A stretch of DNA of 47,775 bases from Myceligenerans pegani (GTDB taxonomy: Bacteria; Actinomycetota; Actinomycetes; Actinomycetales; Cellulomonadaceae), in NCBI RefSeq assembly GCF_014892515.1, contig NZ_JADBGR010000104.1:1-47775 (forward strand), in the 5' to 3' direction. Below, one piece after another: positions 9,917-47,690 of the stretch; the first letter of the stretch is position 1; each line of letters starts with the position of its first letter. The notes beneath the pieces were generated by a model. That model ran no database searches and was not told the DNA's origin. It saw only the letters and a list, made by a program, of their open reading frames with translations. Position numbers and translations under genes: made by a program.

Positions 9917-11183
9917 CAACAATGGTCGGCCTCTGACGCGGCGCGAGATCCGCGAGCGTGAGGCCGCGGCGCGGGCGGCCGCGGAAGGCGGTGGACAGGC
10001 CCCGGGCGGCCCGCCGCAGGGCGGCGCGGGGCCGCAGGCCGGTGGTTTCCCCTCCGCGCCGCCGCCGGTCGCACGGCCGCCGCAGGCGTCCGGGACCCGC
10101 GGTGTGGATGCGACGGGCCGGCTCACGCCCGTGCAGCAGCAAGGTGGCGTGCCCGGCGGCGACGCTCCGACGGCGTTCCCGCCGCCCCGCGGCGGCGCCC
10201 CCGCCAACGGCTCATCCTCTCCGTTCCCCGGCCGATCCGGTGCACCGGCGGATCCGGCCGGTGGCCCGACGGCGCCGCAGAGCCCGTTCGGCGGGCGTGG
10301 CGGCACGCCCGCGGGTCCGGCCGGCGGTCCGACCGGCCCGCCGAGCCCGTTCCCGAGCCGTACCGGCGCCCCGGCGGATCCGGCCGGTGGCCCGACGGGT
10401 CAGCAGAGCCCGTTCGGTGGCCGGGGTGGCGCCCCGGCGGGACCCGCCCCGGCCGGACCCGCCGGCGGCCCGACCGGTCCCCAGAGCCCGTTCGCGCCCC
10501 GGACGCCAGGATCCCCGCCGCCGGCACCGGACGACTTCTCCGACGAGACCGTGCGCCGGGTGCCGCAGGCCGGAGCGCCCTGGGGCCCCGCCGCACCGGC
10601 ACCCGGCAGCGGCCCTGGCCAGGCGGCCCCGGGAGCCCCGGGTGGTCCTGGGGCCCCGGGGGCGCCGGGCGGTCAGACCACCCGGCCCGCGAGCCCTGCT
10701 TCACCGTTCGGCGACCGCGGTGCGAACCCGCCCCGGGCCGAGGCCACGCAGGTGGCGCCCGCGGGCCTGCCGTGGGGCCGGAACGCCCCGGCGCCCGGAC
10801 CCGGGGGCGGGTCCGGCCCCGGGGAGGTGCCGGGCGCGTCGCCGTTCCCGCCCGCCCTGGGCGTCCAGGGCGCGCCACCTGGCGCACCGCCGGGTCCGGG
10901 CGGCCCCGGTGGCCCCGGCGCGCCCGATCAGGGCTTCGAGATGATGGTCGGCGGACGGCCGCAGGGCGCCCGCAACGATCCGCGCGCCGAGGAGGACTGG
11001 GACGAGACGGAGGAGGATCCCGGTCCGTCCTACACCTGGTTGCACTACGTCATCCTCGTGGTCGTGGCGTTCGTGCTGGGCCTGCTGATCTGGAAGCTCG
11101 TCCTGGAGGAGGACAGCTCCTACGGTGCGGACGAGGCCGCCGCGCCGGTCGTCGCGGTGCTTCCCGGGGCGGGGCTCGCATGA
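9909..11183 (+). CDS. Pro/Gly/Ala-rich protein with C-terminal membrane anchor
   Basis: A 424-aa protein of unknown function. It begins [23 protein letters not shown], a charged helix, then runs about 330 residues of Gly/Pro/Ala-rich low complexity with four imperfect ~21-residue units of the type SPFxGRxGAPAxPAGGPTGxQ. An acidic patch ([16 protein letters not shown]) precedes one membrane segment ([21 protein letters not shown], residues ~378-398) and a short tail. The long N-terminal part is therefore probably cytoplasmic. ATG 9909 was chosen over an upstream GTG because it overlaps the nadD stop and starts the conserved [10 protein letters not shown] motif. It is coupled to rsfS by ATGA. 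Confidence 0.75.
10218..10482 (+). repeat. Imperfect 63-nt tandem repeats inside the Pro/Gly-rich gene
   Basis: Four in-frame units encoding SPF-x-GR-x-GAPA-x-PAGGPTG, each about 21 residues; the fourth is extended by an APAGP insertion. Such tracts tend to vary in copy number between strains and are prone to assembly error. Confidence 0.65.
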
Positions 11184-11620
11184 CGGCGACCGAACGCGCG
11201 CGCGAGCTCGCCGTCGTCGCGGCGCGTGCGGCGAGCGACCGGAAGGCGCAGGAGATCATCGCGCTCGACGTGAGCGATCAGCTCGTGCTCACCGACATCT
11301 TCCTCATCGCGTCGGGGACGAACGAACGCCAGGTGTCGGCGATCGTCGACGCCGTCGAGGAGGCGATGCACAAGGCGGGCTCGAAGGCGATCCGCCGGGA
11401 GGGCATCTCGGAGGCGCGCTGGGCGCTGCTGGACTTCGGCGACGTCGTCGTGCACGTGCAGCACGCCGAGGACCGCGTGTACTACGCGCTCGAGCGGCTC
11501 TGGAAGGACTGCCCGGAGATCGAGCTGCCCGAGGACGCCCAGGGCGGCGGCGACACCGCCGAGTTCGGCGGGACCGACACCGACGCGGCCATCCACCTCG
11601 ACCCGGAGCTGCGTCAGTGA
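11180..11620 (+). CDS. rsfS: Ribosome silencing factor RsfS
   Basis: Binds L14 on the 50S subunit and blocks subunit joining when nutrients are low. The 146-aa protein has the complete RsfS domain: ALDVSDQLVLTDIFLIASGTNERQVSAIVD, EGISEARWALLDFGDVVVHVQHAEDRVYYALERLWKD. A ~35-residue acidic tail follows. ATG 11180 overlaps the preceding stop (ATGA). The same frame is open well upstream inside the Pro/Gly-rich gene, but this ATG matches the family N-terminus. The stop overlaps the GTG of the next gene. Confidence 0.95.
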   Translation: MTATERARELAVVAARAASDRKAQEIIALDVSDQLVLTDIFLIASGTNERQVSAIVDAVEEAMHKAGSKAIRREGISEARWALLDFGDVVVHVQHAEDRVYYALERLWKDCPEIELPEDAQGGGDTAEFGGTDTDAAIHLDPELRQ

Positions 11621-12303
11621 CGGCGGGCACCATCGTCCTCCTGCGTCACGGCCGGACCGCCTACAACCATTCCAAGCGCCTCCAGGGGCAGATCGACATC
11701 CCGTTGGACGACGTCGGCCGCTGGCAGGCCGAGCAGGGCGCGAACGCGCTCGCGTCGTCGCACACGGCGACGAAGGTGGTGGCGAGCGACCTGCAGCGCG
11801 CCCTCGACACGGCGACCGCCTACGCGAAGCTGGTGGGGGCCGACGTCGAGCCGGACGTGCGGCTGCGGGAGCGCTCGTTCGGCGAGTGGGAGGGCTTGAG
11901 CGGCGAGGAGATCGCGGCGCGCTGGCCCGCCGAGCACGCGGCATGGCGCGCCGGGGCCGATCCCGTGCGGGCGGGTGCGGAGTCCCGCGCGGCGGTCGCG
12001 GAGCGGATGTCCGCCGCGGTGCTGGAGCACGCGGCCGGGCTGGGCGCCGAGGACACGCTCGTGGTCGTCTCGCACGGTGCCGCGATCACGCTGACGCTCA
12101 CCCTGCTGCTGGGCCAGGATCCCGTCGAGTGGCGGGGTATCAGCGGCCTGCACAACGTGCACTGGTCACACCTGCACGCGGCCGATCCGCAGGCGCATCC
12201 GGCGTGGCGGCTCGTCGCGCACAACGTCGGGGCGGGCTACCCGCTGGACCACTGGCTGGCGGGTCCGGACTGGAACCTGGAGCCGGGCGTCTCGGGGGAG
12301 TGA
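11617..12303 (+). CDS. Histidine phosphatase family protein (phosphoglycerate mutase-like)
   Basis: Phosphohydrolase of the RHG superfamily. The start TAGTIVLLRHGRTAYN carries the RHG motif, whose His is the phospho-acceptor. RLQGQIDIPLDDVGRWQAEQ, ERSFGEWEGLSGEEI and VVVSHGAAITLTL (second catalytic His) follow in the expected order. 228 aa. GTG 11617 was chosen because it forms a GTGA overlap with the rsfS stop; the frame is open upstream only as a shadow. Position directly after rsfS is common in actinobacteria, where it is often labelled phosphoglycerate mutase. The substrate cannot be read from the sequence. Confidence 0.9.
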   Translation: MTAGTIVLLRHGRTAYNHSKRLQGQIDIPLDDVGRWQAEQGANALASSHTATKVVASDLQRALDTATAYAKLVGADVEPDVRLRERSFGEWEGLSGEEIAARWPAEHAAWRAGADPVRAGAESRAAVAERMSAAVLEHAAGLGAEDTLVVVSHGAAITLTLTLLLGQDPVEWRGISGLHNVHWSHLHAADPQAHPAWRLVAHNVGAGYPLDHWLAGPDWNLEPGVSGE

Positions 12304-35876: not shown

Positions 35877-36947
35877 TCAGGACACCTCGCGGGGGCGGAC
35901 CGAGCTGCGGATCACGAGGTGCGTCCCGATCATGACGTGGGGAGGTGTGCCGCCGCGTGCCTCGTGCTCGAGCGCGAGACGCACGGCGGTGCGCCCGATC
36001 TCCTCGTGCGACATGTGCACGGTGGTCAGGTCGAGGTCGAGCGAGGGCTGAAGATCGTCGAATCCCACGACCGACACGTCGTCGGGCACCTTGAGCCCGT
36101 TCTCCGTGAGCGCCCGGACGGCGCCGCCGGCGATGAGGTCGTTGAGGGCGAAGACCGCGGTGAAGTCACGCCTACCGGTGGCCAGTCGCTCCTTCATCAT
36201 CCGGTAGCCCTCGTGCCACAACATCATGCCCTCCACCTCCAGCGCCGGGTCGTGCGGCACGCGGTGCGCGGCCAGCGCCCGGCGGTAGCCGGCCACCCGG
36301 CCCTCGGCCGTGGTGTAGCCGGGACGACTGCCGAGGCACAGGATCCGCTCGTGTCCCGCGGACAGCAGGTGGCTGGTCGCCGAGTGCGCCCCACCGACGT
36401 TGTCGTACTCCACGACGACCGCGGGCACGTCGGGGCCGAGCGGCGGGCGGCCGCACAGCACCAGCCGGGAACCGATTGCGGCCAGGGCGTGGGCGTACCG
36501 GCTCATGCGCTCGTGGTACCTCTCGTCGGCGACCACGTTGCCGACCAGGATGACCGCCTCGGTGTGCTGCTCCCGCATGAACCTCACCATGGCGAGCTCG
36601 CGCTCGGGGTCACCGCCGGTCGTACCGATCAGGCACAACCGGCCCTCCGCGGCGGTCTGCGCCTCGACCCCCTGGGCGACGTGCGCGTAGTGCGGTGAGA
36701 CAACCGAGTTGAGCACGATGGCGATGCTCTTGGCGGAGGTGCCGGCAAGGGCGCGGGCGTGGGCGTTGGCCACGTAGTCCAGTTCCTCGACGGCGCGCAT
36801 GACGCGCTTGCGGGTGGCAGGAGCGGCCGGGTAGTCGCCGCTCAGGATTCGGGACACGGTGGCGACCGACACACCGGCCCGAGCCGCCACCTCGCGGATC
36901 GTGGACCGCCGCTGGCCGCCCCCGGACTCGCTCGCCCTTCGCGCCAT
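35877..36947 (-). CDS. LacI family transcriptional regulator of the pectin locus
   Basis: 356-aa sugar-responsive repressor. The helix-turn-helix and hinge are STIREVAARAGVSVATVSRILSGDYPAAPATRKRVMRAVEELDYVANAHARAL (residues ~15-68). The periplasmic-binding-protein-like domain follows: IAIVLNSVVSPHYAHVAQGVEAQ, VILVGNVVADERYHERMSRYA, FAVFALNDLIAGGAVRAL-type region and VSVVGFDDLQPSLDLDLTTVHMSHEEIGRTAV. ATG 36947 fits the family start; the longer ATG 36977 frame has no support. It is divergent from five secreted pectin-degrading enzymes. A 20-bp dyad with an AAGCGGTT core lies 44 bp upstream, suggesting autoregulation. Confidence 0.9.
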   Translation of the reverse strand: MARRASESGGGQRRSTIREVAARAGVSVATVSRILSGDYPAAPATRKRVMRAVEELDYVANAHARALAGTSAKSIAIVLNSVVSPHYAHVAQGVEAQTAAEGRLCLIGTTGGDPERELAMVRFMREQHTEAVILVGNVVADERYHERMSRYAHALAAIGSRLVLCGRPPLGPDVPAVVVEYDNVGGAHSATSHLLSAGHERILCLGSRPGYTTAEGRVAGYRRALAAHRVPHDPALEVEGMMLWHEGYRMMKERLATGRRDFTAVFALNDLIAGGAVRALTENGLKVPDDVSVVGFDDLQPSLDLDLTTVHMSHEEIGRTAVRLALEHEARGGTPPHVMIGTHLVIRSSVRPREVS

Positions 36948-36990
36948 CGTCCACCGGCCTTCCCAGCACCGCCGCATCGGAGTTCCGTTT

Positions 36991-37010
36991 TCAGGAAGCG
37001 GTTACTGAAT
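36991..37010. promoter_or_regulatory. LacI-type operator before the lacI gene
   Basis: TTCAGGAAGCGGTTACTGAA: outer arms TTCAG/CTGAA are perfect and 16 of 20 positions are symmetric around the central CG, the usual LacI-family design. A TATAAA -10 for lacI (minus strand, 37019-37014) lies just upstream. Confidence 0.7.
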
Positions 37011-37140
37011 CATTTATACCCCTTGCGCACCGGTGTCATCCACCTGCAGGGGAACGGCTGCTCCACCGCTCCGACGACGTGCGCGGGTGGCACGCGCGCC
37101 GGGGCCCCATCCCGCCTGGTCACAGGCGGAGGGAAGAGAG

Positions 37141-37285
37141 TTAAAGCGCTTAAAGGGGTGCATTGCCACTCAGGGAGCCGCGTCGACCGAAGCGATACTA
37201 GCCGTAACCGAGTAAATGGGCGGTTGTGGAGGTATGGACAGCCCTGGGGTGGTTGGCTACGCTGCGTTCGTCATAGTAAGCGTTT
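37141..37285. promoter_or_regulatory. LacI-type operators before the rhamnogalacturonan lyase gene
   Basis: Two sites share AAGCGnTT with the site at 36991. Site 2, 37141-37154, is TTAAAGCGCTTAAA (12 of 14 positions symmetric). Site 3 core, 37278-37285, is AAGCGTTT within GTAAGCGTTTCC, 24 bp before ATG 37309. This fills most of the 361-bp intergenic region; otherwise I see only possible promoter elements (TTGGCT at 37253) without certain spacing. Confidence 0.65.
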
Positions 37286-37308
37286 CCACACCGTCGTGGA
37301 GGCTATAC

Positions 37309-39546
37309 ATGTCAGTGAAACAGTCCCTCAAGATTTCGACAGCCGGGGCCGTAGCCGTCCTGCTGCTGGGATCGATCACGACGTTCGCCGCCGACGCGAG
37401 CGCCGCGACGACCCGGTACGAGGCGGAGTCCGCGCCGGCCGTGTGCGACGGCACCATCGACTCGAACCACAGCGGCTTCTCCGGGAGCGGGTTCTGCAAC
37501 GGGGCCAACGCCGTCGACTCCTCGGCCCAGTTCACGGTGACGCCGGAGGCCGCCGGCACGGCGACGCTCGGGATCCGGTTCGCCAACGGGACCACCAGTG
37601 CCCGGCCGGTGGACCTGGTGGTCAACGGGACGACAGCGCAATCGGTGTCGTTCGAGCCCACCGGAGCGTGGTCCTCGTGGTCCACCAAGTCCGTGACGGT
37701 CCCGCTGAACAGCGGCGGCAACACCGTCCGGTTGGAGCCGACCACCACGGCCGGGCTACCCAACATCGACTACCTCGACGTGACGGACGGCGGCGACCCG
37801 CCGCTGGGTGACGGCAGGAAGATGGAGAGTCTCGGGCGCGGGGTCGTGGCCGTGCGGTCGGGCAGCGACAGCGTCCTGGTCTCCTGGCGGCTGCTGGGCC
37901 TCGATCCAGAAGGCATCGGGTTCAACGTCTACCGCTCCACCGCAGGCGGCCAGGAAACCAAGCTCAACTCCTCGGTGCTGACCGGAGGAACCAACTACGT
38001 CGACTCGACGGCCAACCTGTCGCAGGCCAACACCTATCGGGTGCGGCCGGTGATCGACGGCGTGGAGCAGCCGGCGAGCGGTGCGTTCACGTTGTCCGCC
38101 AACCATGCCACCGAGCCGGTCGTCCGGGTTCCGCTGCGTTCCGGTGGCCCGGTGAAGTTCGTGTGGGTCGGCGACCTGGACGGCGACGGTGAGTACGACT
38201 ACGTGCTGGACCGCCAGACCTCACCGCAGACGATCGAGGCCTACCGAAGCAACGGCGAGTTCCTCTGGTCGGTGAACATGGGGCCGAACAGCACCGACCA
38301 GAACAACATCGAAGGTGGATCGTCCACGATCGACGTCGGGCACAACGACGGCGTGACCGTCTACGACTTCGACAGCGACGGCCGCGCCGAGGTCGCCGTA
38401 CGGATCGCGAACGGCGTCCGCTTCGGCGACGGCACGACATACGACGACCTGCCCAACAACACCCGGCAGGCGATCGCCATTCTCGACGGGATGACCGGGG
38501 CGGCGCGCGCCACTGCGCCTGTGCCCACCGACTACCTGTCCGACGGCCCGATGTACGCGCGCTTCGGCGTCGGCCACCTCGACGGCGAGAACCCCAGCCT
38601 GGTCGCGTACATGAAGAACCGGATCGGCAACGGCGGGTTCAACCTCATGTTCACCGCGTGGCGGTTCAGCGGCAGCACGCTGACGCAGGAATGGAAGTTC
38701 CTGCGCGGCAACCAGAACCTGCCGGACGGGCACAACACCCGGGTCATCGACGTGGACGGCGACGGCCGGGACGAGGTCGCCGAGATCGGGTTCGTGCTCA
38801 ACGGGGACGGCACGCTCAAGTACTCGCTGGGGCCGCAGGGCGTCGTCCACGGCGACCGCTTCCACATCGCCGACATGGACCCGAACCGGCCGGGCCTGGA
38901 GGGCTACGCGGTCCAGCAGGACAACCCGAGCGGTCTGCGCGAGTACTACTACGCCGCCGCCACCGGCACCATGATCTGGCGGCACACGGCGTCCGGCACG
39001 GCCGACGTCGGCCGGGGCATGGCCGGCGACATCGACCCACGTCACCCCGGCATGGAGGTCTGGTCGTTCTCCGGCTTGTACAACGCACCGACCAACCGCC
39101 TCGCCGAGCCGAACACGTCGTTGCAGCCGTGGCCGCAGACGGGACTGTGGTGGGACGGCGACATCACGATGGAACTGCTCAACGACGGCAAGTTCGAGAA
39201 GTGGGATCCGAACGACCCCAGGCCGACCAACAGCCTGCCACGGCTGCTCAGCACCTGGAACTACGGTGCGGTCGACGCCAGCCAGAACGTCCAGCCCACC
39301 TTCCACGGCGACATCCTCGGCGACTGGCGCGAGGAAGTCGTGTACACCAACGCGAGCTACGACGAGCTGATCATCTTCACCACCGACCGGCCGTCGAGCA
39401 CCCGGCTGTACACGCTCGCGCACAACCCGGCCTACCGCAACGACATGACCGTCAAGGGCTACATGCAGTCCCATCACGTCGACTACTTCCTCGGCGCCGG
39501 CATGGCCCGGCCGCCCCAGCCGGACATCACCTACTCCGGGAGGTGA
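37309..39546 (+). CDS. Secreted rhamnogalacturonan lyase, PL11, with N-terminal CBM35
   Basis: 745-aa extracellular enzyme that cleaves the rhamnose-galacturonate backbone of RG-I by beta-elimination. A signal peptide (SVKQSLKISTAGAVAVLLLGSITTFAADASAA) is followed by a CBM35-like module (nt ~37408-37790). The PL11 domain starts KMESLGRGVVAVRSGSDSVLVSWRLLGLDP and IGFNVYRST. Calcium-type loops DLDGDGEYDYVLD, DFDSDGRAEVAV and DVDGDGRDEVAEIG belong to its propeller, and the end HNPAYRNDMTVKGYMQSHHVDYFLGAGM is typical for YesW/YesX relatives. ATG 37309 lies 6 nt after GGAGG. It is the first gene of the locus. Confidence 0.92.
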   Translation: MSVKQSLKISTAGAVAVLLLGSITTFAADASAATTRYEAESAPAVCDGTIDSNHSGFSGSGFCNGANAVDSSAQFTVTPEAAGTATLGIRFANGTTSARPVDLVVNGTTAQSVSFEPTGAWSSWSTKSVTVPLNSGGNTVRLEPTTTAGLPNIDYLDVTDGGDPPLGDGRKMESLGRGVVAVRSGSDSVLVSWRLLGLDPEGIGFNVYRSTAGGQETKLNSSVLTGGTNYVDSTANLSQANTYRVRPVIDGVEQPASGAFTLSANHATEPVVRVPLRSGGPVKFVWVGDLDGDGEYDYVLDRQTSPQTIEAYRSNGEFLWSVNMGPNSTDQNNIEGGSSTIDVGHNDGVTVYDFDSDGRAEVAVRIANGVRFGDGTTYDDLPNNTRQAIAILDGMTGAARATAPVPTDYLSDGPMYARFGVGHLDGENPSLVAYMKNRIGNGGFNLMFTAWRFSGSTLTQEWKFLRGNQNLPDGHNTRVIDVDGDGRDEVAEIGFVLNGDGTLKYSLGPQGVVHGDRFHIADMDPNRPGLEGYAVQQDNPSGLREYYYAAATGTMIWRHTASGTADVGRGMAGDIDPRHPGMEVWSFSGLYNAPTNRLAEPNTSLQPWPQTGLWWDGDITMELLNDGKFEKWDPNDPRPTNSLPRLLSTWNYGAVDASQNVQPTFHGDILGDWREEVVYTNASYDELIIFTTDRPSSTRLYTLAHNPAYRNDMTVKGYMQSHHVDYFLGAGMARPPQPDITYSGR
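37408..37790 (+). repeat. CBM35 coding module, near-identical to one in the PL9 gene
   Basis: Encodes RYEAESAPAVCDGTID to NIDYLDV. It shares uninterrupted identical runs of about 60 nt with 43756-44135, for example from GACGGCACCATCGACTCG onward and from GGATCCGGTTCGCCAACG onward. Confidence 0.8.
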
Positions 39547-39574
39547 TGGGACGACGCGAGTTTCGTGCAGGAAC

Positions 39575-39604
39575 GCCGGCGCGCAGGACGTCCTGCGCGC
39601 CGGC
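39575..39604 (+). terminator. Perfect 30-bp palindrome after the PL11 gene
   Basis: GCCGGCGCGCAGGAC followed by its exact reverse complement, 29 nt after the lyase stop and before the GH43 gene. It is probably a terminator or an mRNA-processing/stability hairpin setting first-gene expression apart. Confidence 0.7.
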
Positions 39605-39640
39605 CCGTGATCACCGTCAACCCCGCATCGGGAGGAACCT

Positions 39641-42271
39641 ATGAATCGGCTCAGCAAGGCTTCGAAACTCGGGGCCACCGTCACGTTGTTGTCCATGGCG
39701 TTGGTGGCACCGCTGTCCGCGAGCACCGCCGCGGCCCAGGCACCGGCGGCCCAGCAGGCACCGGCGGCCCAGCAGGCACCGGCGGCCCAGCAGGCACCGG
39801 CGGCCCAGGCACCCGCAGCAGGTCTCCAAGACCTACGTGCCGAAGCCGAACCGGTGGATCGAGGCCTCGACTACCTGGTCTCGGACTACCAGAACCGCGA
39901 CGAGGCGGAGTACACGGCCGAATCCTGGGCGCCCTTCGCCAAGGCGTTGCGCGCCGCGGACGACGTCGCCGACGACGCGTCGGCCTCCACGTCGGAGGTC
40001 GCCACCGCGAAGACGGAACTCATGACCGCCGCTGCCGATCTGACGGCGGCCGACGAAGGCACGTTCGAGACCATCACGAACGACACCTTCTGGAACGACA
40101 CCGACGGCAACCCCATCTACTCGCAGGGCGGTGGGGTCTTCAAGTTCGGGGACACGTACTACTGGTACGGCGTGCACTACACCGGCGCCGAGAGCTATCG
40201 GGCCAACCCGACACAGAAGTACGACAACCAGGTCTCCTTCGTCTCGATCCCCGTGTACTCGTCCCAGGACCTGGTGAACTGGAAGTTCGAGAACCGGGTG
40301 GCGACGCGCTCCACCGGCGTCGGCAGCGGCGCCAACCTGGGCGGTGCCGGCTGGGTCGGGCGGCTCGGCGTCACGTACAACGAGAACACCGGCAAGTACG
40401 TGCTCGCCGTGCAGATGTGGCACCCGGGCCGTGGCGGGCACGGCGTCCTGCTGCTGCAGGGCGACTCGCCGACCGACACCTTCGACTACGGCTACTTCCA
40501 GATCCAGGTCCAGAACTCGCCGACGACCGGCACCGGGGATCAGACGGTCTTCACCGACGACGACGGGCAGGACTACCTGATCTTCTCCAACCGCGAAGGA
40601 CGGTCGCGCGGCTTCGTGTCCAAGTTCCGGGAGTCCGACTCGCTGCGGATCGAGCCAGGCGTCGAGATCCGCCGCGGCGACGGCCGCGAGGGCAACGCCA
40701 TGTTCAAGCTCGACGGCAAGTACTACCACGCGGCGTCGGACCTGCACGGCTGGAACACGTCCGTCAACTACGTCAACGAGTCGACCAGCGGCAACATCCA
40801 GGGCAGCTACTCCAGCGAGTTCATCCTCGAGGGCACCGAGATGGACTACAGCCACGTGACCCAGACCGGGTTCTTCGTGACGGTGAACGGCACCAAGCAG
40901 AGCACGGTGATCTACGCCGGCGACCGCTGGGCCGACTTCGCCTGGAACGGTATCGGCTACAACCAGTGGGTACCGATCACCAAGACCGGCGCGCGGCCGG
41001 AGTTCCACTCGGTGAGCCAGTGGCAGTTCAACGTCACGACCGGCGAGTGGCGCGTCGGACCGCAGAACAACTACATCCTCAACCCCGACATCCAGGCCGA
41101 CCGGATCATCGTGTCCAACGTCCGAGGATGGCGGAACATCGGCGGCTGGTCGACCAACGTCAACGGTGGCGCGAACGGGTCCCGCTTCGCGCTCGAGGTG
41201 GGTGACCGCGGCGGCGTGGAGCAGCGGATCGAGTCGGTTCCCGGCGGCGAGTACACCCTGTCCCTGCACGCCCGGGGCAACGCCGGGCAGGTCGTGGTCA
41301 CCGGTGCCAACGGCGTCCAGAGCACCCTCAGCGTTCCGTCGTCGGGCGGCTGGACCCAGCGCCAGCTCACCGGCATCGAACTGCCCAGCGGGGGAGCCAC
41401 CGTCACCGTGCGGGCGTCGGGTTCGGGCGGCTTCACCGTCGACCAGCTCTCACTCGTCAGGACCGACGACGGCCCGCCGCCCGAGCCGGGGCAGCGCTAC
41501 GAGGCGGAGTCCGCGCCCGCGGTGTGCCAGGGCACGATCAGTTCGAACCACTCGGGGTACTCGGGTACCGGGTTCTGTGACGGTGACCAGGCCGTCGGGG
41601 CCTACGCACAGTTCACGGTGACCCCGCAGGACGCCGACACGGCGGCGGTGGGGATCCGGTTCGCCAACGGCAGCACCAGTGCGCGGCCGGCGAACGTGGT
41701 CGTCAACGGGACCACGGTGGACACGGTGTCGTTCGAGCCCACCGGCTCGTGGTCGACGTGGTCGACCAAGTCCGTGCCGGTCTCGCTGAACGAGGGCAGC
41801 AACACGATCCGGATCGAGCCGACCGCGGCCACAGGACTGCCCAACGTGGACTATCTGGACCTCATCGGCGCGCCCGAACCGGAACCGGAACGTCTCGAGG
41901 CCGAGGACGCCCCGGCCACCTGCGACGGCACCATCGACACGAACCACTCCGGCTACTCCGGCACGGGGTTCTGCAACGGCGACAACGCCGTGGGCGCGGC
42001 AGCGCAGTTCACGGTGAACCCGGCAGCCGCCGGCACGGCCACGGTGGAGGTCCGGTTCGCCAACGGCGCAGATTCGCGGGCCGCGAATGTGATCGTTAAC
42101 GGTGCCACGGTGGACACGGTCTCGTTCGAGTCCACCGGCGCCTGGTCCGCGTGGGCCACCAAGGCCCTGACCGTGTCGCTGAACGAGGGCAGCAACACCA
42201 TCCGGATCGAGCCGACCACGGCCGCAGGCCTCCCCAACATCGACTACCTCGACGTCGGTCCCGCCGCGTAA
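39641..42271 (+). CDS. Secreted GH43-family glycosidase with two C-terminal CBM35 modules
   Basis: 876-aa exported enzyme probably removing galactose or arabinose side chains of RG-I. Order: signal peptide (~1-33); QAPAAQ repeats (~34-55); helical FIVAR-like spacer (SDYQNRDEAEYTAESWAPFAKALRAA); five-bladed-propeller catalytic domain from ~145 (DTFWNDTDGNPIYSQGGGVFKFGDTYYWYG, GRLGVTYNENTGKYVLAVQM, DDDGQDYLIF, EGNAMFKLDGKYYHAASDLHGWN); a carbohydrate-binding-like module (NPDIQADRIIVSNVRGWRNIGGWS, ~483-610); CBM35 at nt ~41491-41870 and ~41887-42262. The catalytic start resembles the exo-beta-1,3-galactanase branch of GH43; subfamily and specificity are not certain. GGGAGGA about 8-10 nt before ATG 39641. 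Confidence 0.85.
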   Translation: MNRLSKASKLGATVTLLSMALVAPLSASTAAAQAPAAQQAPAAQQAPAAQQAPAAQAPAAGLQDLRAEAEPVDRGLDYLVSDYQNRDEAEYTAESWAPFAKALRAADDVADDASASTSEVATAKTELMTAAADLTAADEGTFETITNDTFWNDTDGNPIYSQGGGVFKFGDTYYWYGVHYTGAESYRANPTQKYDNQVSFVSIPVYSSQDLVNWKFENRVATRSTGVGSGANLGGAGWVGRLGVTYNENTGKYVLAVQMWHPGRGGHGVLLLQGDSPTDTFDYGYFQIQVQNSPTTGTGDQTVFTDDDGQDYLIFSNREGRSRGFVSKFRESDSLRIEPGVEIRRGDGREGNAMFKLDGKYYHAASDLHGWNTSVNYVNESTSGNIQGSYSSEFILEGTEMDYSHVTQTGFFVTVNGTKQSTVIYAGDRWADFAWNGIGYNQWVPITKTGARPEFHSVSQWQFNVTTGEWRVGPQNNYILNPDIQADRIIVSNVRGWRNIGGWSTNVNGGANGSRFALEVGDRGGVEQRIESVPGGEYTLSLHARGNAGQVVVTGANGVQSTLSVPSSGGWTQRQLTGIELPSGGATVTVRASGSGGFTVDQLSLVRTDDGPPPEPGQRYEAESAPAVCQGTISSNHSGYSGTGFCDGDQAVGAYAQFTVTPQDADTAAVGIRFANGSTSARPANVVVNGTTVDTVSFEPTGSWSTWSTKSVPVSLNEGSNTIRIEPTAATGLPNVDYLDLIGAPEPEPERLEAEDAPATCDGTIDTNHSGYSGTGFCNGDNAVGAAAQFTVNPAAAGTATVEVRFANGADSRAANVIVNGATVDTVSFESTGAWSAWATKALTVSLNEGSNTIRIEPTTAAGLPNIDYLDVGPAA
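39741..39809 (+). repeat. 18-nt tandem repeat encoding QAPAAQ
   Basis: Three exact copies of CACCGGCGGCCCAGCAGG (39741-39794) plus a partial fourth, just after the signal peptide. Slippage-prone linker; copy number may vary. Confidence 0.85.
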
Positions 42272-42282
42272 CACCGTCGGCG

Positions 42283-42322
42283 GCGGTCAGGAGGGTGTCC
42301 GGTTCTTCGCCCTCCTGACCGC
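42283..42322 (+). terminator. Terminator hairpin after the GH43 gene
   Basis: 13-bp perfect stem GCGGTCAGGAGGG / CCCTCCTGACCGC with a 14-nt loop, 12 nt after the stop codon. Confidence 0.75.
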
Positions 42323-42396
42323 ACCAGCTCGGCCGCAACGCCCTGACCATGCTCGGGCCGGCGTATCGCGGCGACCCTACTCACTGAGGAGTGGTG

Positions 42397-44145
42397 ATGA
42401 AACTACTGGCGAAACTGGTCGTGACGGCCGTCCTGGCGGGTTCGGCCGGGCTGGTCGCGCCCCACGCCGACCCGGCGGCCGGGCAGGCCTCCGCGGCCGG
42501 ACAGACCTATTACGTGGCACCGAACGGCAGTGACGGCGCGGCAGGCACGCAGGCAGCTCCCTGGGCCTCGATCGCCCATGCACAGTCCGTGGCTCGCGCC
42601 GGCGACACCGTCTACTTCCGGGGCGGCACCTACGCCTATACCCGTGCGAACAGGAGCTGCTCGAGTCAGACCGACCGGGTCGACGCCATCACCCTGAACA
42701 GGAGCGGCAGCGCGGGCAACCCGATCCGCTACTGGGCCTACCCGGGTGAGACGCCGGTCTTCGACTTCTCCGGCATGCGGGACGACTGCCGGATCAAGGG
42801 CTTCAGCGTCACCGGCAGCCACCTGCACCTCAAGGGGCTGGAGGTCACCGGTGTGCCGCAGAACAACTGGCGGAACGCCGAGTCCTGGGGGATCTGGATC
42901 TCAGGAGACAACAACACGTTCGAGCAGCTCGACCTCCACCACCACATGGGGACCGGCCTGTTCGTCAACGGTGGCAGCGGCAACCTCGTCGTCAACTCGG
43001 ATTCGCACGACAACTACGACCCGCGCAGCACCGACGGGCCCGGCGAGAACGCCGACGGTTTCGGCTCGCACTACACGCCGGCCGGCCGCCCCGCGAACGT
43101 GTTCACGGGGTGCCGCGCGTGGTGGAACGGGGACGACGGGTTCGACCTCATCTCCACGTACTCGCCCGTGACCATCGAGCACTCGTGGTCCTGGCGCAAC
43201 GGGTACGAGCCGGGGGCGACGACGCCCGCCGGCAACGGGGTCGGCTTCAAGGTGGGTGGCTTCGGTGGCGACTACGACACCGGCGCGGTGAAGCACACCG
43301 TCCGCTTCTCGGTCGCGTTCCTGAACAAGGCCGCGGGCTTCTATTCCAACCACCACCCGGTGGCCAACGACTACTTCAACAACACCGGCTACGGAAACCA
43401 CCCCAACTTCAACATGAGGGGAGTCGACTCGAGCGGCAACGCCGTCGGACGCGGGAACCTGCGCAACAACGTCGCCTACACCGGAACGCCGACGTCGTAC
43501 ATGAACGGCACCAACTCCTCGCACAACACCTGGGACCTCGACATCCGCCTGTCGGACTCGCAGTTCCAGAGCGTGTCGACGTCGGGCTGGGACGCACCCC
43601 GTCAGGCCGACGGAGGCCTGCCCGTGCTGCCCCACCTCCGCCCCGCGGAGAACAGTGACCTGATCGACCGGGGCACCGACGTCGGCCTGCCGTACACCGG
43701 AACGGCGCCGGATCTCGGCGCCTTCGAGGCGGGCGACGGCGGCCCGCCGCCGGGGCAGCGGTACGAGGCGGAGACCGCGCCGGCGGTGTGTGACGGCACC
43801 ATCGACTCGAACCACAGCGGCTTCTCCGGGAGCGGGTTCTGCAACGGGGCCAATGCTGTGGACTCCTCCGCGCAGTTCACGGTGACCGCGGAGACCGCCG
43901 GCACCGCGACGCTGGGGATCCGGTTCGCCAACGGGACCACCAGTGCCCGGCCGGTGGACCTGGTGGTCAACGGGACGACGGCGGGGACGGTGTCGTTCGA
44001 GCCCACCGGCGCGTGGTCGACGTGGTCGACCAAGACGGCGACCGTCCCGCTCGACGCCGGCAGCAACACCATCCGGCTGGAGCCGACCACCACGGCCGGG
44101 CTACCCAACATCGACTACCTCGACGTCGAAGCCGCCGCTGACTGA
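42397..44145 (+). CDS. Secreted PL9-like pectate lyase (right-handed beta-helix) with CBM35
   Basis: 582-aa exported protein. Signal peptide KLLAKLVVTAVLAGSAGLVAPHADPAAG. The catalytic part opens TYYVAPNGSDGAAGTQAAPWASIAHAQSVARAGDTVYFRGGTYAYT, standard for extracellular beta-helix pectate lyases. Parallel beta-helix turns follow (FEQLDLHHHMGTGLFVNGGSGNLVVNSDSHDNYD, FTGCRAWWNGDDGFDLI, VRFSVAFLNKAAGFYSNHH). NADGFGSHYTP and DDGFD recall the calcium site of PL9 enzymes. LIDRGTDVGLPYTGTAPDLGAFE ends the domain, then a CBM35 (nt ~43756-44135). ATG 42397 is 5 nt after GAGGAG. It should cut homogalacturonan or RG-I. Confidence 0.88.
   Translation: MKLLAKLVVTAVLAGSAGLVAPHADPAAGQASAAGQTYYVAPNGSDGAAGTQAAPWASIAHAQSVARAGDTVYFRGGTYAYTRANRSCSSQTDRVDAITLNRSGSAGNPIRYWAYPGETPVFDFSGMRDDCRIKGFSVTGSHLHLKGLEVTGVPQNNWRNAESWGIWISGDNNTFEQLDLHHHMGTGLFVNGGSGNLVVNSDSHDNYDPRSTDGPGENADGFGSHYTPAGRPANVFTGCRAWWNGDDGFDLISTYSPVTIEHSWSWRNGYEPGATTPAGNGVGFKVGGFGGDYDTGAVKHTVRFSVAFLNKAAGFYSNHHPVANDYFNNTGYGNHPNFNMRGVDSSGNAVGRGNLRNNVAYTGTPTSYMNGTNSSHNTWDLDIRLSDSQFQSVSTSGWDAPRQADGGLPVLPHLRPAENSDLIDRGTDVGLPYTGTAPDLGAFEAGDGGPPPGQRYEAETAPAVCDGTIDSNHSGFSGSGFCNGANAVDSSAQFTVTAETAGTATLGIRFANGTTSARPVDLVVNGTTAGTVSFEPTGAWSTWSTKTATVPLDAGSNTIRLEPTTTAGLPNIDYLDVEAAAD
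43756..44135 (+). repeat. CBM35 coding module, near-identical to the one in the PL11 gene
   Basis: Encodes RYEAETAPAVCDGTID to NIDYLDV. DNA identity to 37408-37790 is very high in two ~60-nt blocks and at the 3' end, with scattered synonymous and non-synonymous changes between. Confidence 0.8.
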
Positions 44146-44216
44146 CGTCCCCGCCGGCACGGCTCTCTCGCGGTCCACCGAACCCCAGGATGTTCCCTAC
44201 ACCCAAGGAGTCAACG

Positions 44217-45536
44217 ATGACCATGCAACGACGGACCTTCCTCCGCATGAGCGCGGCCGGAGCGGCGGGCGTGGGCCTGACGTCCCTGCTCGGCGCGGCG
44301 CCGGCGCTCGGTGCGGCGCCCCTGGCCACGGCGTCGGCCGCCGCGACGTACGCGGTCGGCGTGCGCCGGTACGACTGGTGGCGCGGCAGCCGCCGCTGCA
44401 CCACCTACGTCTACTACCCCGCCACCGGCACCCCGGGCGGCAACCCGGTGACGAACGCCCCGGTCGCCGACGGCGTCTTTCCCGTCTACAACTACACCCA
44501 CGGCTGGGGCTCCAGCCCGCAGAACTCGCTGTTCTTCATCCGCCCGCTGGCCGCGGCGGGCTTCATCGTCCCGGCCCCGCACTTCGAGTACAGCGGCGCC
44601 GGCGAGGTCCGGAGCGGCGAGCCGTCGAGGGACGTCTCCGAGATCATCACGCAGACCCTCGCCCTCAACGCGAGCGGACCGCTGTCCGGGCACATCAACA
44701 CCGACATCGGCGTGGGCGTCTCCGGCCACTCCCTGGGCGGCATGACCACCCACGGCCTGCTCACCGCCTGGCCCGACAGCCGCATCATCTCGGCCAACCC
44801 GCAGTCGTGCGAGGACATGGGCACCCCCGCCTCCTCGATCACGGCCAAGGTCGTGTTCGTCCACGGCGACCGCGACGACCTCACGCGGTACGACTCGGCG
44901 CGCCAGGCCTACAACGAGCTGACCTGGCCCAAGGGGTTCCTCACGTTCGTCGGCGGCAGCCACACCAGCTTCTGGGGCGACGTCCGCTTCCCGAACACCG
45001 TCGTCGACTGGGCGCTCTGGAGCATGAACGGCGACACCGCCGCCCGCGACCGCCTCCCGCAGGATGCGGCCGGGCCCAACACCAGGTGGGAGGCCGAACT
45101 GGGCGAGGGACCGTCCGAGCCGACCGGGGTCTTCCGCCTGGCTGCCCAGCACAGCGGCAAGCTGGCCGACATCGACGCCCGCTCGACCGCGGCCGGGGCC
45201 CGGCTGATCCAGTGGCGGTCCACCGGAGCGACCAACCAGCAGTTCGAGTTCGTCGCCGCCGGCGACGACCACTACCGGATCAAGGCCCGCCACTCCGGCC
45301 TGTTCCTGCAGGTGGCGAGCAACAGCAGCGGCGCCGACATCACCCAGCAGCCCGAGTCGGGCGCGACGACCCAGCAGTGGCGCATCGTCGACCACGGCGG
45401 CAGCATCAGCCTCATCAACCGGTCCTCGGGCCTCGCCATGGACGTCTGGGAGTACTCCTCCGCCGATGGCGCCCGCATCTCCCAGTGGGACTACACCGGC
45501 AACGCCAACCAGCGCTTCGCCCGCCAGAGCGTCTGA
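44217..45536 (+). CDS. Tat-exported alpha/beta hydrolase (esterase) with ricin-type lectin domain
   Basis: 439-aa secreted esterase. The twin-arginine signal is MQRRTFLRMSAAGAAGVG. The hydrolase domain resembles chlorophyllase/PET-hydrolase-like dienelactone hydrolases: VYNYTHGWGSSPQNS (oxyanion region), VGVSGHSLGGMTTHG (catalytic Ser), VFVHGDRDDLTRYDSARQAY (acid) and FVGGSHTSFWGD (His). Residues ~305-439 form a ricin B-like CBM13 domain with repeated Q-x-W motifs (IQWRS, QQWRIVD, SQWDYTG). ATG 44217 is 7 nt after AAGGAG. In this locus it may deacetylate or de-esterify pectin fragments; that role is inferred from position. Confidence 0.85.
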   Translation: MTMQRRTFLRMSAAGAAGVGLTSLLGAAPALGAAPLATASAAATYAVGVRRYDWWRGSRRCTTYVYYPATGTPGGNPVTNAPVADGVFPVYNYTHGWGSSPQNSLFFIRPLAAAGFIVPAPHFEYSGAGEVRSGEPSRDVSEIITQTLALNASGPLSGHINTDIGVGVSGHSLGGMTTHGLLTAWPDSRIISANPQSCEDMGTPASSITAKVVFVHGDRDDLTRYDSARQAYNELTWPKGFLTFVGGSHTSFWGDVRFPNTVVDWALWSMNGDTAARDRLPQDAAGPNTRWEAELGEGPSEPTGVFRLAAQHSGKLADIDARSTAAGARLIQWRSTGATNQQFEFVAAGDDHYRIKARHSGLFLQVASNSSGADITQQPESGATTQQWRIVDHGGSISLINRSSGLAMDVWEYSSADGARISQWDYTGNANQRFARQSV

Positions 45537-45674
45537 CCGTGCGGTGGGGCGGGCCGATGACCCGGTACCGCCCCGCCCGACGCCGCCACCTACCTGGGCG
45601 GCCCGCGCGGCCGCCGGTCCCGGCGGCCGCGCCCTGTCTGCCGTGCGATTCGATCACTACCTCGGAGGTCCATC

Positions 45675-47567
45675 ATGCGTTCACCCAGACGGCGTCCGGC
45701 GCTGCTCTCCGCCGGGCTTGCCGCGGCACTTTCCGCCGGGCTTGCCGCGGCGCCGGCCGGCGCCGGTCCCATCGTCGGTTCCACGGTGGCCTCCGCCGCG
45801 GTGGAGACCCGCTACGAGGCCGAGACCGCCCCGGCCACCTGCGACGGCACCATCGACACGAACCACTCCGGCTATTCCGGCACGGGGTTCTGCAACGGCG
45901 ACAACGCGGTCGGTGCGGCAGTCCAGTTCACCCTTGACGAGGACGCCTCCGCCACCGGCACCGCCACCCTCCTGGTGCGATTCGCGAACGCCTCCTCGGC
46001 CGCCCGCGCGGCCGAGGTCGTCGTCAACGGCACCACGGTGCAGTCGGTCTCGTTCCAGCCCACCGGCGCGTGGAGCACCTGGGCCACCACGACACTCACC
46101 GTCTCGCTGGACCCGGGCAGCAACACGATCCGGCTCAACCCCACCAGCGCCGCCGGCCTGCCCAACGTGGACTATCTCGACGCCGAGGCAGTCACCACCC
46201 CGACCCGCTACGAAGCCGAGACCGCACCGGCCACCTGTGACGGCACCATCGACTCCGACCACGGCGGCTATTCCGGCACCGGGTTCTGCAACGGCGACCC
46301 GGAGGCCGGCGCCGCGGCACAGTTCACCGTGAACGCGTCGGAGACCGGCACGGCGACGCTGGCGATCCGCTACGCCAACGGCGCCACCGCCGCACGCCCC
46401 GCCGATCTGATCGTGAACGGCGACACCGTGCTGTCGACGTCGTTCCAGCCCACCGGCGGATGGAGCGGCTGGACCACGAAGACCTCCGTCGTGCAGCTGA
46501 ACTCAGGTGACAACACCATCCGGCTCAGCCCCACCGGTGCCGACGGCCTACCCAACATCGACTACCTCGAATTCGAGCTCGGAGACATCCCGCAGCCGCC
46601 CGGCTGGCCGCAGGAGTGCGAGCGCAGGTCTCCGATCGTCTGCCACTTCGACGTCGCTCCCGGCAACTACGAGGTCACCGCATGGGTCGGCGACCGTGAC
46701 ACGGCGGGCAACACCTCGATGTCGGTGGAGGCGCGCCGCCGTGTCCTGCACGCGGTCGACACCGCGGCCGGCACGATCACCGAGCACACCTTCACCATCA
46801 ACGTCCGGCAGCCGGAGGGCCAGCCGACGGGCCAGGGCGGTACAGGCAACCCCGGACTGGACATCACCTTCGCGGGTTCGGCGCCGAGGCTGTCCGGTCT
46901 GACGGTGCAGCCGGCGAACGACCCCATGGTGGTGTACCTGGCGGGTGACTCCACGACGTGTGACCAGCCGCTCGCCCCGTGGACCGGCTGGGGGCAGCTC
47001 CTGCCCACGCAGGTGTCGGAGGGTGCCGTCGTCGCCAACTACGGGGACTCGGGCGAGAGCTCGGGGAGCTTCCTGCGCAACTCGGCGTTGTTCCCGACGA
47101 TGAGGCCGCTGATCCAGAGCGACGATTTGGTACTCATCCAGTTCGGGCACAACGACAAGTCCACGTCGGCGTCGGCGTTCCGCGGCAACCTCGCCTCGAT
47201 GATCAACCAGGTGCGGGACAGAGGAGGCGACCCCGTCCTCGTCACGCCACCGGTACGGCGGCACTTCGACGGCGACCGGCTCACCCCCACCGCGCGACAT
47301 GTCAACGGCGTGGGCGTCGACCTGCCGGCGGAGATGCGCAGGCTCGGCTCCGAGCTCGGCGTGCCGGTCATCGACCTGACCGCCAAGAGCCAGGCGCTCG
47401 TGGAGTCGCTGGGGCCGAACGAGTCCGCCCGGCTCTACCTGCGCCAGGCGGAGGACGGGTACCGGGACAACACCCACTTCTCGGAGTACGGCGCCGGAAG
47501 GATGGCCGACCTCGTCGTCGAGGGAGTCCGCGAGCACAACCTGTCCCTGGTCAGCTACCTACGCTGA
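45675..47567 (+). CDS. Secreted rhamnogalacturonan acetylesterase, CE12, with two N-terminal CBM35
   Basis: 630-aa extracellular SGNH hydrolase that removes acetyl groups from RG-I so lyases can act. A signal peptide (~1-35) precedes CBM35 at nt ~45807-46190 and ~46200-46575. A beta-sandwich-like linker (CHFDVAPGNYEVTAWVGDRDTAGNTSMSVEARRR) leads to the esterase: VVYLAGDSTTCDQPLAPWTGWGQLLP (catalytic Ser in GDST), NYGDSGESSGSF, VLIQFGHNDKS, and DNTHFSEYGAGRMADLVVEGV with the Asp-x-x-His pair. All blocks of CE12 are present. ATG 45675 has GGAGG about 7 nt upstream. It ends the locus before a terminator. Confidence 0.92.
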   Translation: MRSPRRRPALLSAGLAAALSAGLAAAPAGAGPIVGSTVASAAVETRYEAETAPATCDGTIDTNHSGYSGTGFCNGDNAVGAAVQFTLDEDASATGTATLLVRFANASSAARAAEVVVNGTTVQSVSFQPTGAWSTWATTTLTVSLDPGSNTIRLNPTSAAGLPNVDYLDAEAVTTPTRYEAETAPATCDGTIDSDHGGYSGTGFCNGDPEAGAAAQFTVNASETGTATLAIRYANGATAARPADLIVNGDTVLSTSFQPTGGWSGWTTKTSVVQLNSGDNTIRLSPTGADGLPNIDYLEFELGDIPQPPGWPQECERRSPIVCHFDVAPGNYEVTAWVGDRDTAGNTSMSVEARRRVLHAVDTAAGTITEHTFTINVRQPEGQPTGQGGTGNPGLDITFAGSAPRLSGLTVQPANDPMVVYLAGDSTTCDQPLAPWTGWGQLLPTQVSEGAVVANYGDSGESSGSFLRNSALFPTMRPLIQSDDLVLIQFGHNDKSTSASAFRGNLASMINQVRDRGGDPVLVTPPVRRHFDGDRLTPTARHVNGVGVDLPAEMRRLGSELGVPVIDLTAKSQALVESLGPNESARLYLRQAEDGYRDNTHFSEYGAGRMADLVVEGVREHNLSLVSYLR

Positions 47568-47572
47568 GAACG

Positions 47573-47605
47573 TGCCTGGGGACTTCGTGCAAGGGTCCCC
47601 AGGCA
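47573..47605 (+). terminator. Terminator hairpin closing the pectin locus
   Basis: 11-bp perfect stem TGCCTGGGGAC / GTCCCCAGGCA, 11-nt loop, 5 nt after the CE12 stop. No T-tract. Confidence 0.75.
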
Positions 47606-47690
47606 TCGCCCGCCGCCCTGGACCGGCGTATGGCGCAGAGCCGCCCCGGCCCGGCCAGCGGGGTGGAGCTCGGCACCCCAGGTAGGGGTC

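Follow-up and report, generated by a model that had tools for sequence, protein, structure and literature searches.

The yes/rhg system of Bacillus subtilis for rhamnogalacturonan I (RG-I) combines PL11 lyases with a CE12-type esterase, both RG-I families, under a regulator other than LacI. A gene block of related content was analyzed in the window, a 47,775-base stretch of Myceligenerans pegani DNA corresponding to bases 1-47775 of the 288 kb contig C91 in a genome of 5.87 Mb and 111 contigs. Six genes, at 35877-47567, make up a real and coherent pectin/RG-I cassette of a known kind with unusual parts. As in B. subtilis, a PL11 lyase and a CE12-type esterase are present, YesW and YesX were among the matches in the PDB, and ATP-binding cassette (ABC) permeases of the Yes/Lpl type occur in an operator-bearing cassette of Lentzea alba. 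Unlike in B. subtilis, the regulator is a LacI protein, neither a transporter nor a GH105 gene is included, the exported enzymes carry CBM35 modules, and a PL9 lyase, a GH43-like enzyme and a hydrolase of the twin-arginine (Tat) export type are added. The rhamnogalacturonan acetylesterase of Clostridium thermocellum (2w1w/2w47) likewise has a CBM35 with a uronate-binding signature on a GDSL esterase, but here there are no cellulosome parts, and the six modules are spread over four free enzymes encoded in a single gene block.

It is considered quite likely that the six genes are a self-contained cassette, probably spread horizontally, for degrading acetylated pectin, chiefly RG-I, outside the cell. 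The cassette would be the actinobacterial equivalent of a pectin utilisation locus, defined and portable, and would come with its own predicted repressor and operators. Two of its enzymes are uncharacterised and recur alongside known RG-I enzymes: an esterase candidate and a member of a GH43 clade with altered substrate recognition.

Composition and distribution of the cassette

The translated open reading frames place lacI leftward and five enzyme genes rightward, in the order PL11, GH43-like, PL9, Tat-type alpha/beta-hydrolase with ricin lectin and CE12-type esterase, with gaps of 94, 119, 44 and 138 bases along the enzyme row. A LacI gene divergent from five exported proteins of these families was the core of the original prediction, made from the letters alone, and it was borne out by Pfam, NCBIfam and concordant PDB matches (LacI; RGI_lyase and RGL11_C; Glyco_hydro_43; a Pel9A-like beta-helix; RicinB; GDSL lipase). 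Read by eye, all five enzymes have a hydrophobic export signal at the N-terminus, and the fourth, the alpha/beta-hydrolase, has a twin-arginine motif. The likely starts of LacI (36947) and PL11 (37309) were also set by eye, with signal peptides and the relatives in Promicromonospora panici as guides; the longest reading frames start slightly upstream. The features of the cassette are as follows.

35877..36947, minus strand: LacI-family repressor, divergent from the enzymes (Pfam LacI HTH and Peripla_BP_3)
36994..37005: operator-like site 1, GGAAGCGGTTAC, 47 bp upstream of the likely lacI start
37141..37154: operator-like site 2, TTAAAGCGCTTAAA, aligning with TTAAAACGGTTAC in P. panici
37276..37287: operator-like site 3, GTAAGCGTTTCC, 21 bp before the likely PL11 start, identical in P. 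panici
37309..39546, plus strand: exported PL11 rhamnogalacturonan lyase (RGI_lyase and RGL11_C) with an N-terminal CBM35 (37414-37779)
39641..42271, plus strand: exported protein with a FIVAR-like domain (below the Pfam cut-off), a GH43_24-like domain (about 40070-41074) and two CBM35 (41495-41860 and 41891-42253)
42391..44145, plus strand: exported PL9 lyase (about 42481-43728; NCBIfam PelN, 5olq, 1ru4) with a C-terminal CBM35 (43759-44124)
44190..45536, plus strand: Tat-type alpha/beta-hydrolase (core 44325-45089, profile searches) with a C-terminal ricin-type lectin (about 45102-45527, Pfam RicinB)
45675..47567, plus strand: exported CE12-type SGNH esterase (about 46944-47492; GDSL in Pfam, yxiM 2o14 and RG acetylesterase 1deo in the PDB) with two N-terminal CBM35 (45810-46181 and 46206-46571)

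A comparison of the locus across the family had been proposed. Besides the genome itself, the whole cassette was found in P. panici only (G219, locus L090), where the six genes keep their order and orientation, at 71-90% identity (LacI 90%, PL11 82%, GH43 84%, PL9 83-85%, hydrolase 71%, CE12 82%). Parts of it occur in many bacteria. The recurrence in P. panici shows that the gene arrangement is not due to chance. P. panici has four CBM35 modules, one each on PL11, GH43, PL9 and CE12, compared to six in the window; the cassette thus stays together while the module number changes. The flanks in P. panici differ from those in the window, and a close PL9 homolog is present in 2 of 221 family genomes, M. 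pegani included (any PL9 match at 1e-30: 10/221), which suggests horizontal spread. Among the titles listed in a literature search, largely outside subscription journals, there was no account of this cassette or of its hydrolase.

Predicted roles of the enzymes and their CBM35 modules

The PL11 protein matches RGI_lyase and RGL11_C and aligns to the solved PL11 structures 4cag (280 bits) and YesW (273 bits); cleavage of the RG-I backbone is predicted for it. Its RGL11_C score was 249 bits, compared to about 700-830 bits for the best family members. Two high-scoring PL11 genes were seen elsewhere in the genome, one (L075:10917-15596, on C63) also matching the CE12 query and the other (L077:9723-12038, on C84) with a ricin-type lectin match. 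The CE12-type esterase, whose label was taken from its PDB relatives, matches Lipase_GDSL_2 and has its catalytic Ser in GDST and the C-terminal Asp-x-x-His in DNTHF.

The PL9 protein shares the beta-helix, the Ca-site Asp and the catalytic Lys of Bacteroides thetaiotaomicron BT4170 (5OLQ) and Dickeya Pel9A (1RU4) and PelN. Both residues, as described in PMC6627557, were aligned to 1RU4/5OLQ in the stretches DDGFDL and GFK. Unlike these enzymes, the window protein carries a CBM35. Its scores were 228 bits with the RG lyase 5OLQ and 195 bits with Pel9A; the best score, 611 bits, was obtained with the pectate-lyase model PelN (NCBIfam) and yet lies under the curated cut-off of 740 bits, which places the protein outside the PelN equivalog. 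A second PL9-like protein was noticed at L078:7535-11107 (C92, about 179.5-183.1 kb). Its CBM35 is 58% identical to that of the window PL9, and it is nearer to PelX, with 164 bits, far under the cut-off; the start of its reading frame is uncertain.

The solved proteins nearest to the GH43-like domain are exo-beta-1,3-galactanases of GH43_24. According to PMC7939473, Glu208 acts as the acid and Gln263 as the base in these enzymes, and the galactose O4 is recognised by Glu102. The window protein resembles Ct1,3Gal43A, Pc1,3Gal43A and BT3683 in sequence, and in HMMER alignments the equivalents of Glu208, Gln263, Asp158 and Trp229 were invariant in 30 of 30 proteins (the window protein and 29 homologs). 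Unlike the galactanases, all 30 have lost the two subsite -1 glutamates, Glu102 being replaced by Gly and Glu57 by Val or Ala. The enzyme was therefore not filed as an exo-beta-1,3-galactanase; these alignments point to a distinct clade in which the catalytic apparatus is kept and the galactose handle is gone. With two subsite -1 glutamates lost, a role as RG-I side-chain galactanase or arabinanase was not supported either. Removal of unsaturated galacturonic acid (GalA), a speculation, was thought unlikely because that residue is alpha-linked. A QAPAA repeat directly follows the GH43 signal peptide (window 39737-39823); the beginning of the P. panici protein showed no such repeat.

The original division of labor on RG-I accordingly stands in part. 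A pectin/RG-I locus with a local LacI and the PL11 and CE12 families was upheld, whereas GH43 as a side-chain enzyme (two subsite -1 glutamates lost) and PL9 as an RG-I backbone enzyme (PelN the best match) were not.

The main new lead is the Tat-type hydrolase with ricin lectin, a candidate for a new pectin esterase family. Pfam and NCBIfam scans gave weak or general matches and no specific esterase family. With 26.0 bits the core only just attains the Chlorophyllase cut-off; each of the 46 relatives compared matches Chlorophyllase at E<=0.1. A genome scan gave 132 relatives; the best 80 loci were read and the protein was located in 78. Among relatives of at least 70% identity, 57 of 67 lie near at least one PL11, GH43, PL9 or CE12 gene and 40 near two or more (fetched flanks of up to 10 kb), compared to 0 of 11 below 70%. 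Restricted to loci with at least 9 kb on both flanks, the counts were 40/46 and 0/6. The 70% line was drawn after it was seen which loci lacked pectin genes, and many loci are from related species, so a Fisher value for this split is no clean probability. The linkage extends over Streptomyces, Glycomyces, Saccharothrix, Micromonospora, Nonomuraea, Lentzea and other actinobacterial genera and lends good support to a role in pectin degradation. A decayed-looking homolog was observed in a relative (G013, L079 ~10774-11968), with an internal stop and, by eye, a transposase-like fragment nearby.

The six CBM35 modules, on PL11, GH43 (two), PL9 and CE12 (two), were found as predicted on four of the five enzymes. 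They are 62-90% identical pairwise, the closest being the PL11 and PL9 modules (90% in protein, 91% in DNA). The uronate-binding CBM35 signature given in section 9 of PMC9843283 is Trp A, Asn B, Asn C, His D2, Asn E and an Arg patch. Arg, both Trp, Asn B, Asn C and His D2 are present in six of six window modules and Asn E in five, with Asp in the first GH43 module. A common ligand, as had been proposed, is backed by these residues; rather than intact pectin, however, it is probably a terminal uronic acid (glucuronic acid, GlcA, or unsaturated GalA).

A FastTree tree was built of 76 modules on few columns, after removal of hits shorter than 105 residues or with stops and of locus L160. Sorted by host enzyme it required 13 changes, compared to a shuffled mean of 26.8 (0/200 as low; 20 host-unassigned modules excluded). 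No grouping was seen for the five PL9 modules taken by themselves (5 changes; mean after shuffling 4.9); sorted by locus the tree required 42 changes, a count made without a shuffle control. Although the catalytic part of PL11 shares 89% identity with its P. panici counterpart, the CBM35 of the window PL11 groups as sister (support 98) to that of the window PL9 rather than to the P. panici PL11 module, which indicates module exchange inside the locus.

Operator-like sites and uptake of the products

The LacI protein has the LacI HTH, a sugar-binding domain and palindromic operator-like sites. Alignment of the lacI-PL11 regions of the window and P. panici revealed the three conserved sites listed above, and LacI orthologs of 87-90% identity were found in four genomes, those of P. 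panici, Lentzea alba, Streptomyces CNH099 and Streptomyces TRM68367. A counterpart of site 1 lies at nearly equal distance in P. panici, L. alba and TRM68367. A search motif, [GT][GTA]AA[AG]CGNTT[AC][CA], was drawn from the window and P. panici sites and widened by eye. It occurred three times in the whole window, all between the lacI and PL11 starts, and the 361-bp intergenic region with these 3 sites compares with a shuffle mean of 0.0075 (0/2000 shuffles as high). The four LacI-ortholog loci contained 14 sites in 75.5 kb, compared to 24 sites in 1,362 kb for the other 76 loci; without P. panici, 10 sites in 54.7 kb remained. The counts for the window and P. panici are not independent because the motif was drawn from those same sites.

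In three of the four relatives a motif site lies about 50 bp before lacI, and in CNH099 it lies instead 349 bp before lacI. Both Streptomyces loci have the motif 190-265 bp upstream of the hydrolase gene, in TRM68367 it precedes a PL26-type (PcRGLX) lyase, and in L. alba it stands between a 2-hydroxyacid-dehydrogenase-like gene and a row of two permeases and a binding protein (ABC-transporter genes). A refined consensus built on all these sites, KDAARCGBTTAC, had two matches in the 5.87-Mb genome, both at this locus, and none in the reversed control. From the conservation of the sites and the confinement of the consensus to this locus, LacI is best read as a repressor that probably acts only locally in this genome. 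Allowing two mismatches or fewer, TTAAAGCGCTTAAA was found genome-wide at no place besides site 2. A regulon beyond the locus was sought and rejected: the first motif, GKAARCGNTTMC, had four outside places, but its strand matches equalled those of the reversed control (9 and 9), and TTAAAGCGCTTAAA with three mismatches or fewer gave 16 matches, below the 38 of the control.

It had been stated that the window holds no transporter or intracellular GH105 or GH28 gene, which held within the reach of the searches made; none of 39 sugar-permease matches fell in the window, and the genome has no GH88/GH105 match and a single GH28 match, on contig C45. The accompanying expectation that uptake genes lie to the right was fulfilled in part only. 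About 15 kb to the right of CE12, at about 62-69 kb on C91, there is a cluster in which an IclR regulator and ABC genes are accompanied by genes resembling a dehydrogenase and glucarate dehydratase; all of these matches lie below the curated NCBIfam cut-offs. As the transporter of the locus it was rejected, with about 15 kb of other genes between and no refined operator match at the ABC/IclR cluster. The closest relative of the operator-linked L. alba permease, at 47% identity, is instead on C45 beside the GH28 gene. At L171:7638-15760 this contig has a GH43-like gene, an ABC permease, a binding protein, the GH28 gene, which has no evident export signal, and a second permease (partly named by eye). 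The group is a candidate pectin-oligosaccharide import locus.

A GH88/GH105 hydrolase is thought to be needed for lyase products. Among nine genomes searched for these families, none was found in M. pegani or in five others (G001-G003, G244, G246), P. panici had one below the cut-off, and two (G243, G245) had matches over it. A complete RG-I utilisation system of the yes/rhg type, with an importer in the locus and a GH105 in the genome, was consequently not what was found, and the absence raises the question of how such bacteria use unsaturated products.

Competing explanations and minor features

In the proposed course of events, LacI would bind two to three operators between lacI and PL11 and repress both genes, until a pectin-derived sugar relieves the repression. 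CE12, and probably also the Tat-exported hydrolase, would then remove ester groups. PL11 would cut the RG-I backbone and PL9 pectate or RG-I, by beta-elimination, leaving unsaturated uronic acid ends, and the GH43-like enzyme may trim a side-chain sugar. The idea of CBM35 modules tracking the unsaturated ends that lyases produce is not new; here the modules on PL11, PL9, GH43 and CE12 would attach to terminal uronic acids, and every cut by a lyase would thereby create docking sites for the other enzymes.

Several observations weigh against this reading of the cassette. PL9 is closer to the model of a homogalacturonan enzyme; its substrate may be pectate or RG-I. The genome lacks a GH88/GH105 enzyme to process the unsaturated products. 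It has eight RGL11_C matches, with 799 bits on C63 and 752 bits on C84 compared to 249 bits for the window protein; the window PL11 is thus ruled out as the sole PL11, the locus is not the only RG-I system of the genome, and RG-I breakdown looks redundant. The refined operator consensus is found nowhere outside the locus, which leaves this LacI without a linked uptake gene in the genome. Among the 76 modules, His D2 is present in 15/15 of PL11, 11/11 of CE12, 13/25 of GH43, 3/5 of PL9 and 12/20 host-unassigned modules. The uronate His is therefore absent from 12 of 25 GH43 modules, mostly those of Streptomyces relatives, and from 2 of 5 PL9 modules. The GH43 and PL9 modules of the window are of the uronate type and many GH43 modules of relatives are not, so a common ligand cannot be taken as a constant feature of the system.

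If the target were homogalacturonan-rich pectin in general, PL9 would be the main lyase, and PL11 and CE12 would clear the hairy regions. The 611 bits to PelN fit this, as does the characterised PL9 enzyme PpPel9a, which according to PMC6627557 prefers homogalacturonan over RG-I. The neighborhoods argue otherwise: none of 20 scanned neighbor proteins, a small part of all neighbors, matched PL1, CE8 or GH28, while PL11 and CE12 recur near the hydrolase (32/80 and 37/80 loci) and a PL26-type lyase stands in one locus. This explanation is regarded as unlikely. Still less probable is a target in arabinogalactan-protein (AGP) or pectin-attached type II arabinogalactan, with GH43 acting as an exo-beta-1,3-galactanase and the CBM35 modules binding GlcA caps. 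The best matches of GH43 and its retained catalytic acid and imidic-acid Gln speak for it. The replacement of the O4-recognising Glu and of the second subsite -1 Glu, described above for all 30 proteins, speaks against it, and to our knowledge PL11, PL9 and CE12 have no role in AGP degradation.

A different explanation concerns the Tat-exported hydrolase, which could be of cutinase or polyester type and act on cutin or suberin in a general attack on plant debris. It shares the Ser, Asp, His order, invariant among the aligned relatives, with PETase/cutinase-like alpha/beta-hydrolases, and a profile of 46 relatives matched poly(ethylene terephthalate) (PET) hydrolases, dienelactone hydrolase, cutinases and acetyl xylan esterase with E values of 1e-11 to 1e-7 (best 1.4e-11, among the best 60 of 157 matches). 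Unlike these enzymes, the window core had no match to the PETase-like family PF12740 at E<=0.1, as found for 11 of 46 relatives, and it has a pectin-gene neighborhood, to which 57 of 67 close relatives conform. Directly behind the catalytic part, 46 of these 67 carry a ricin lectin and 4 a CBM35, and the operator motif before the hydrolase gene in the two Streptomyces loci is a further point for pectin. A cutinase-type function is possible but doubtful. The cassette for acetylated pectin, chiefly RG-I, remains the preferred reading. Its most far-reaching form is equally tentative: the hydrolase-lectin would found a new carbohydrate esterase family removing an ester of pectin (RG-I), together with a new GH43 clade of imidic-acid apparatus and non-galactose, perhaps uronic acid, specificity, and with uronate-homing CBM35 modules, in a pectin system without GH88/GH105.

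A consensus promoter scan of the window found no promoter, and a scan for terminators with a T tract gave two, both on the opposite strand. Folding with ViennaRNA gave two hairpins.

39575..39604, plus strand: 30-base hairpin with a perfect 13-bp stem between PL11 and GH43 (palindrome core 8/8)
47572..47606, plus strand: strong hairpin directly 3' of CE12, with no T tract and missed by the T-tract scan

The first is a possible RNA processing or attenuation site; by eye, no comparable palindrome was visible in the PL11-GH43 gap of P. panici, which was compared unfolded. The second is a candidate for the end of the transcript.

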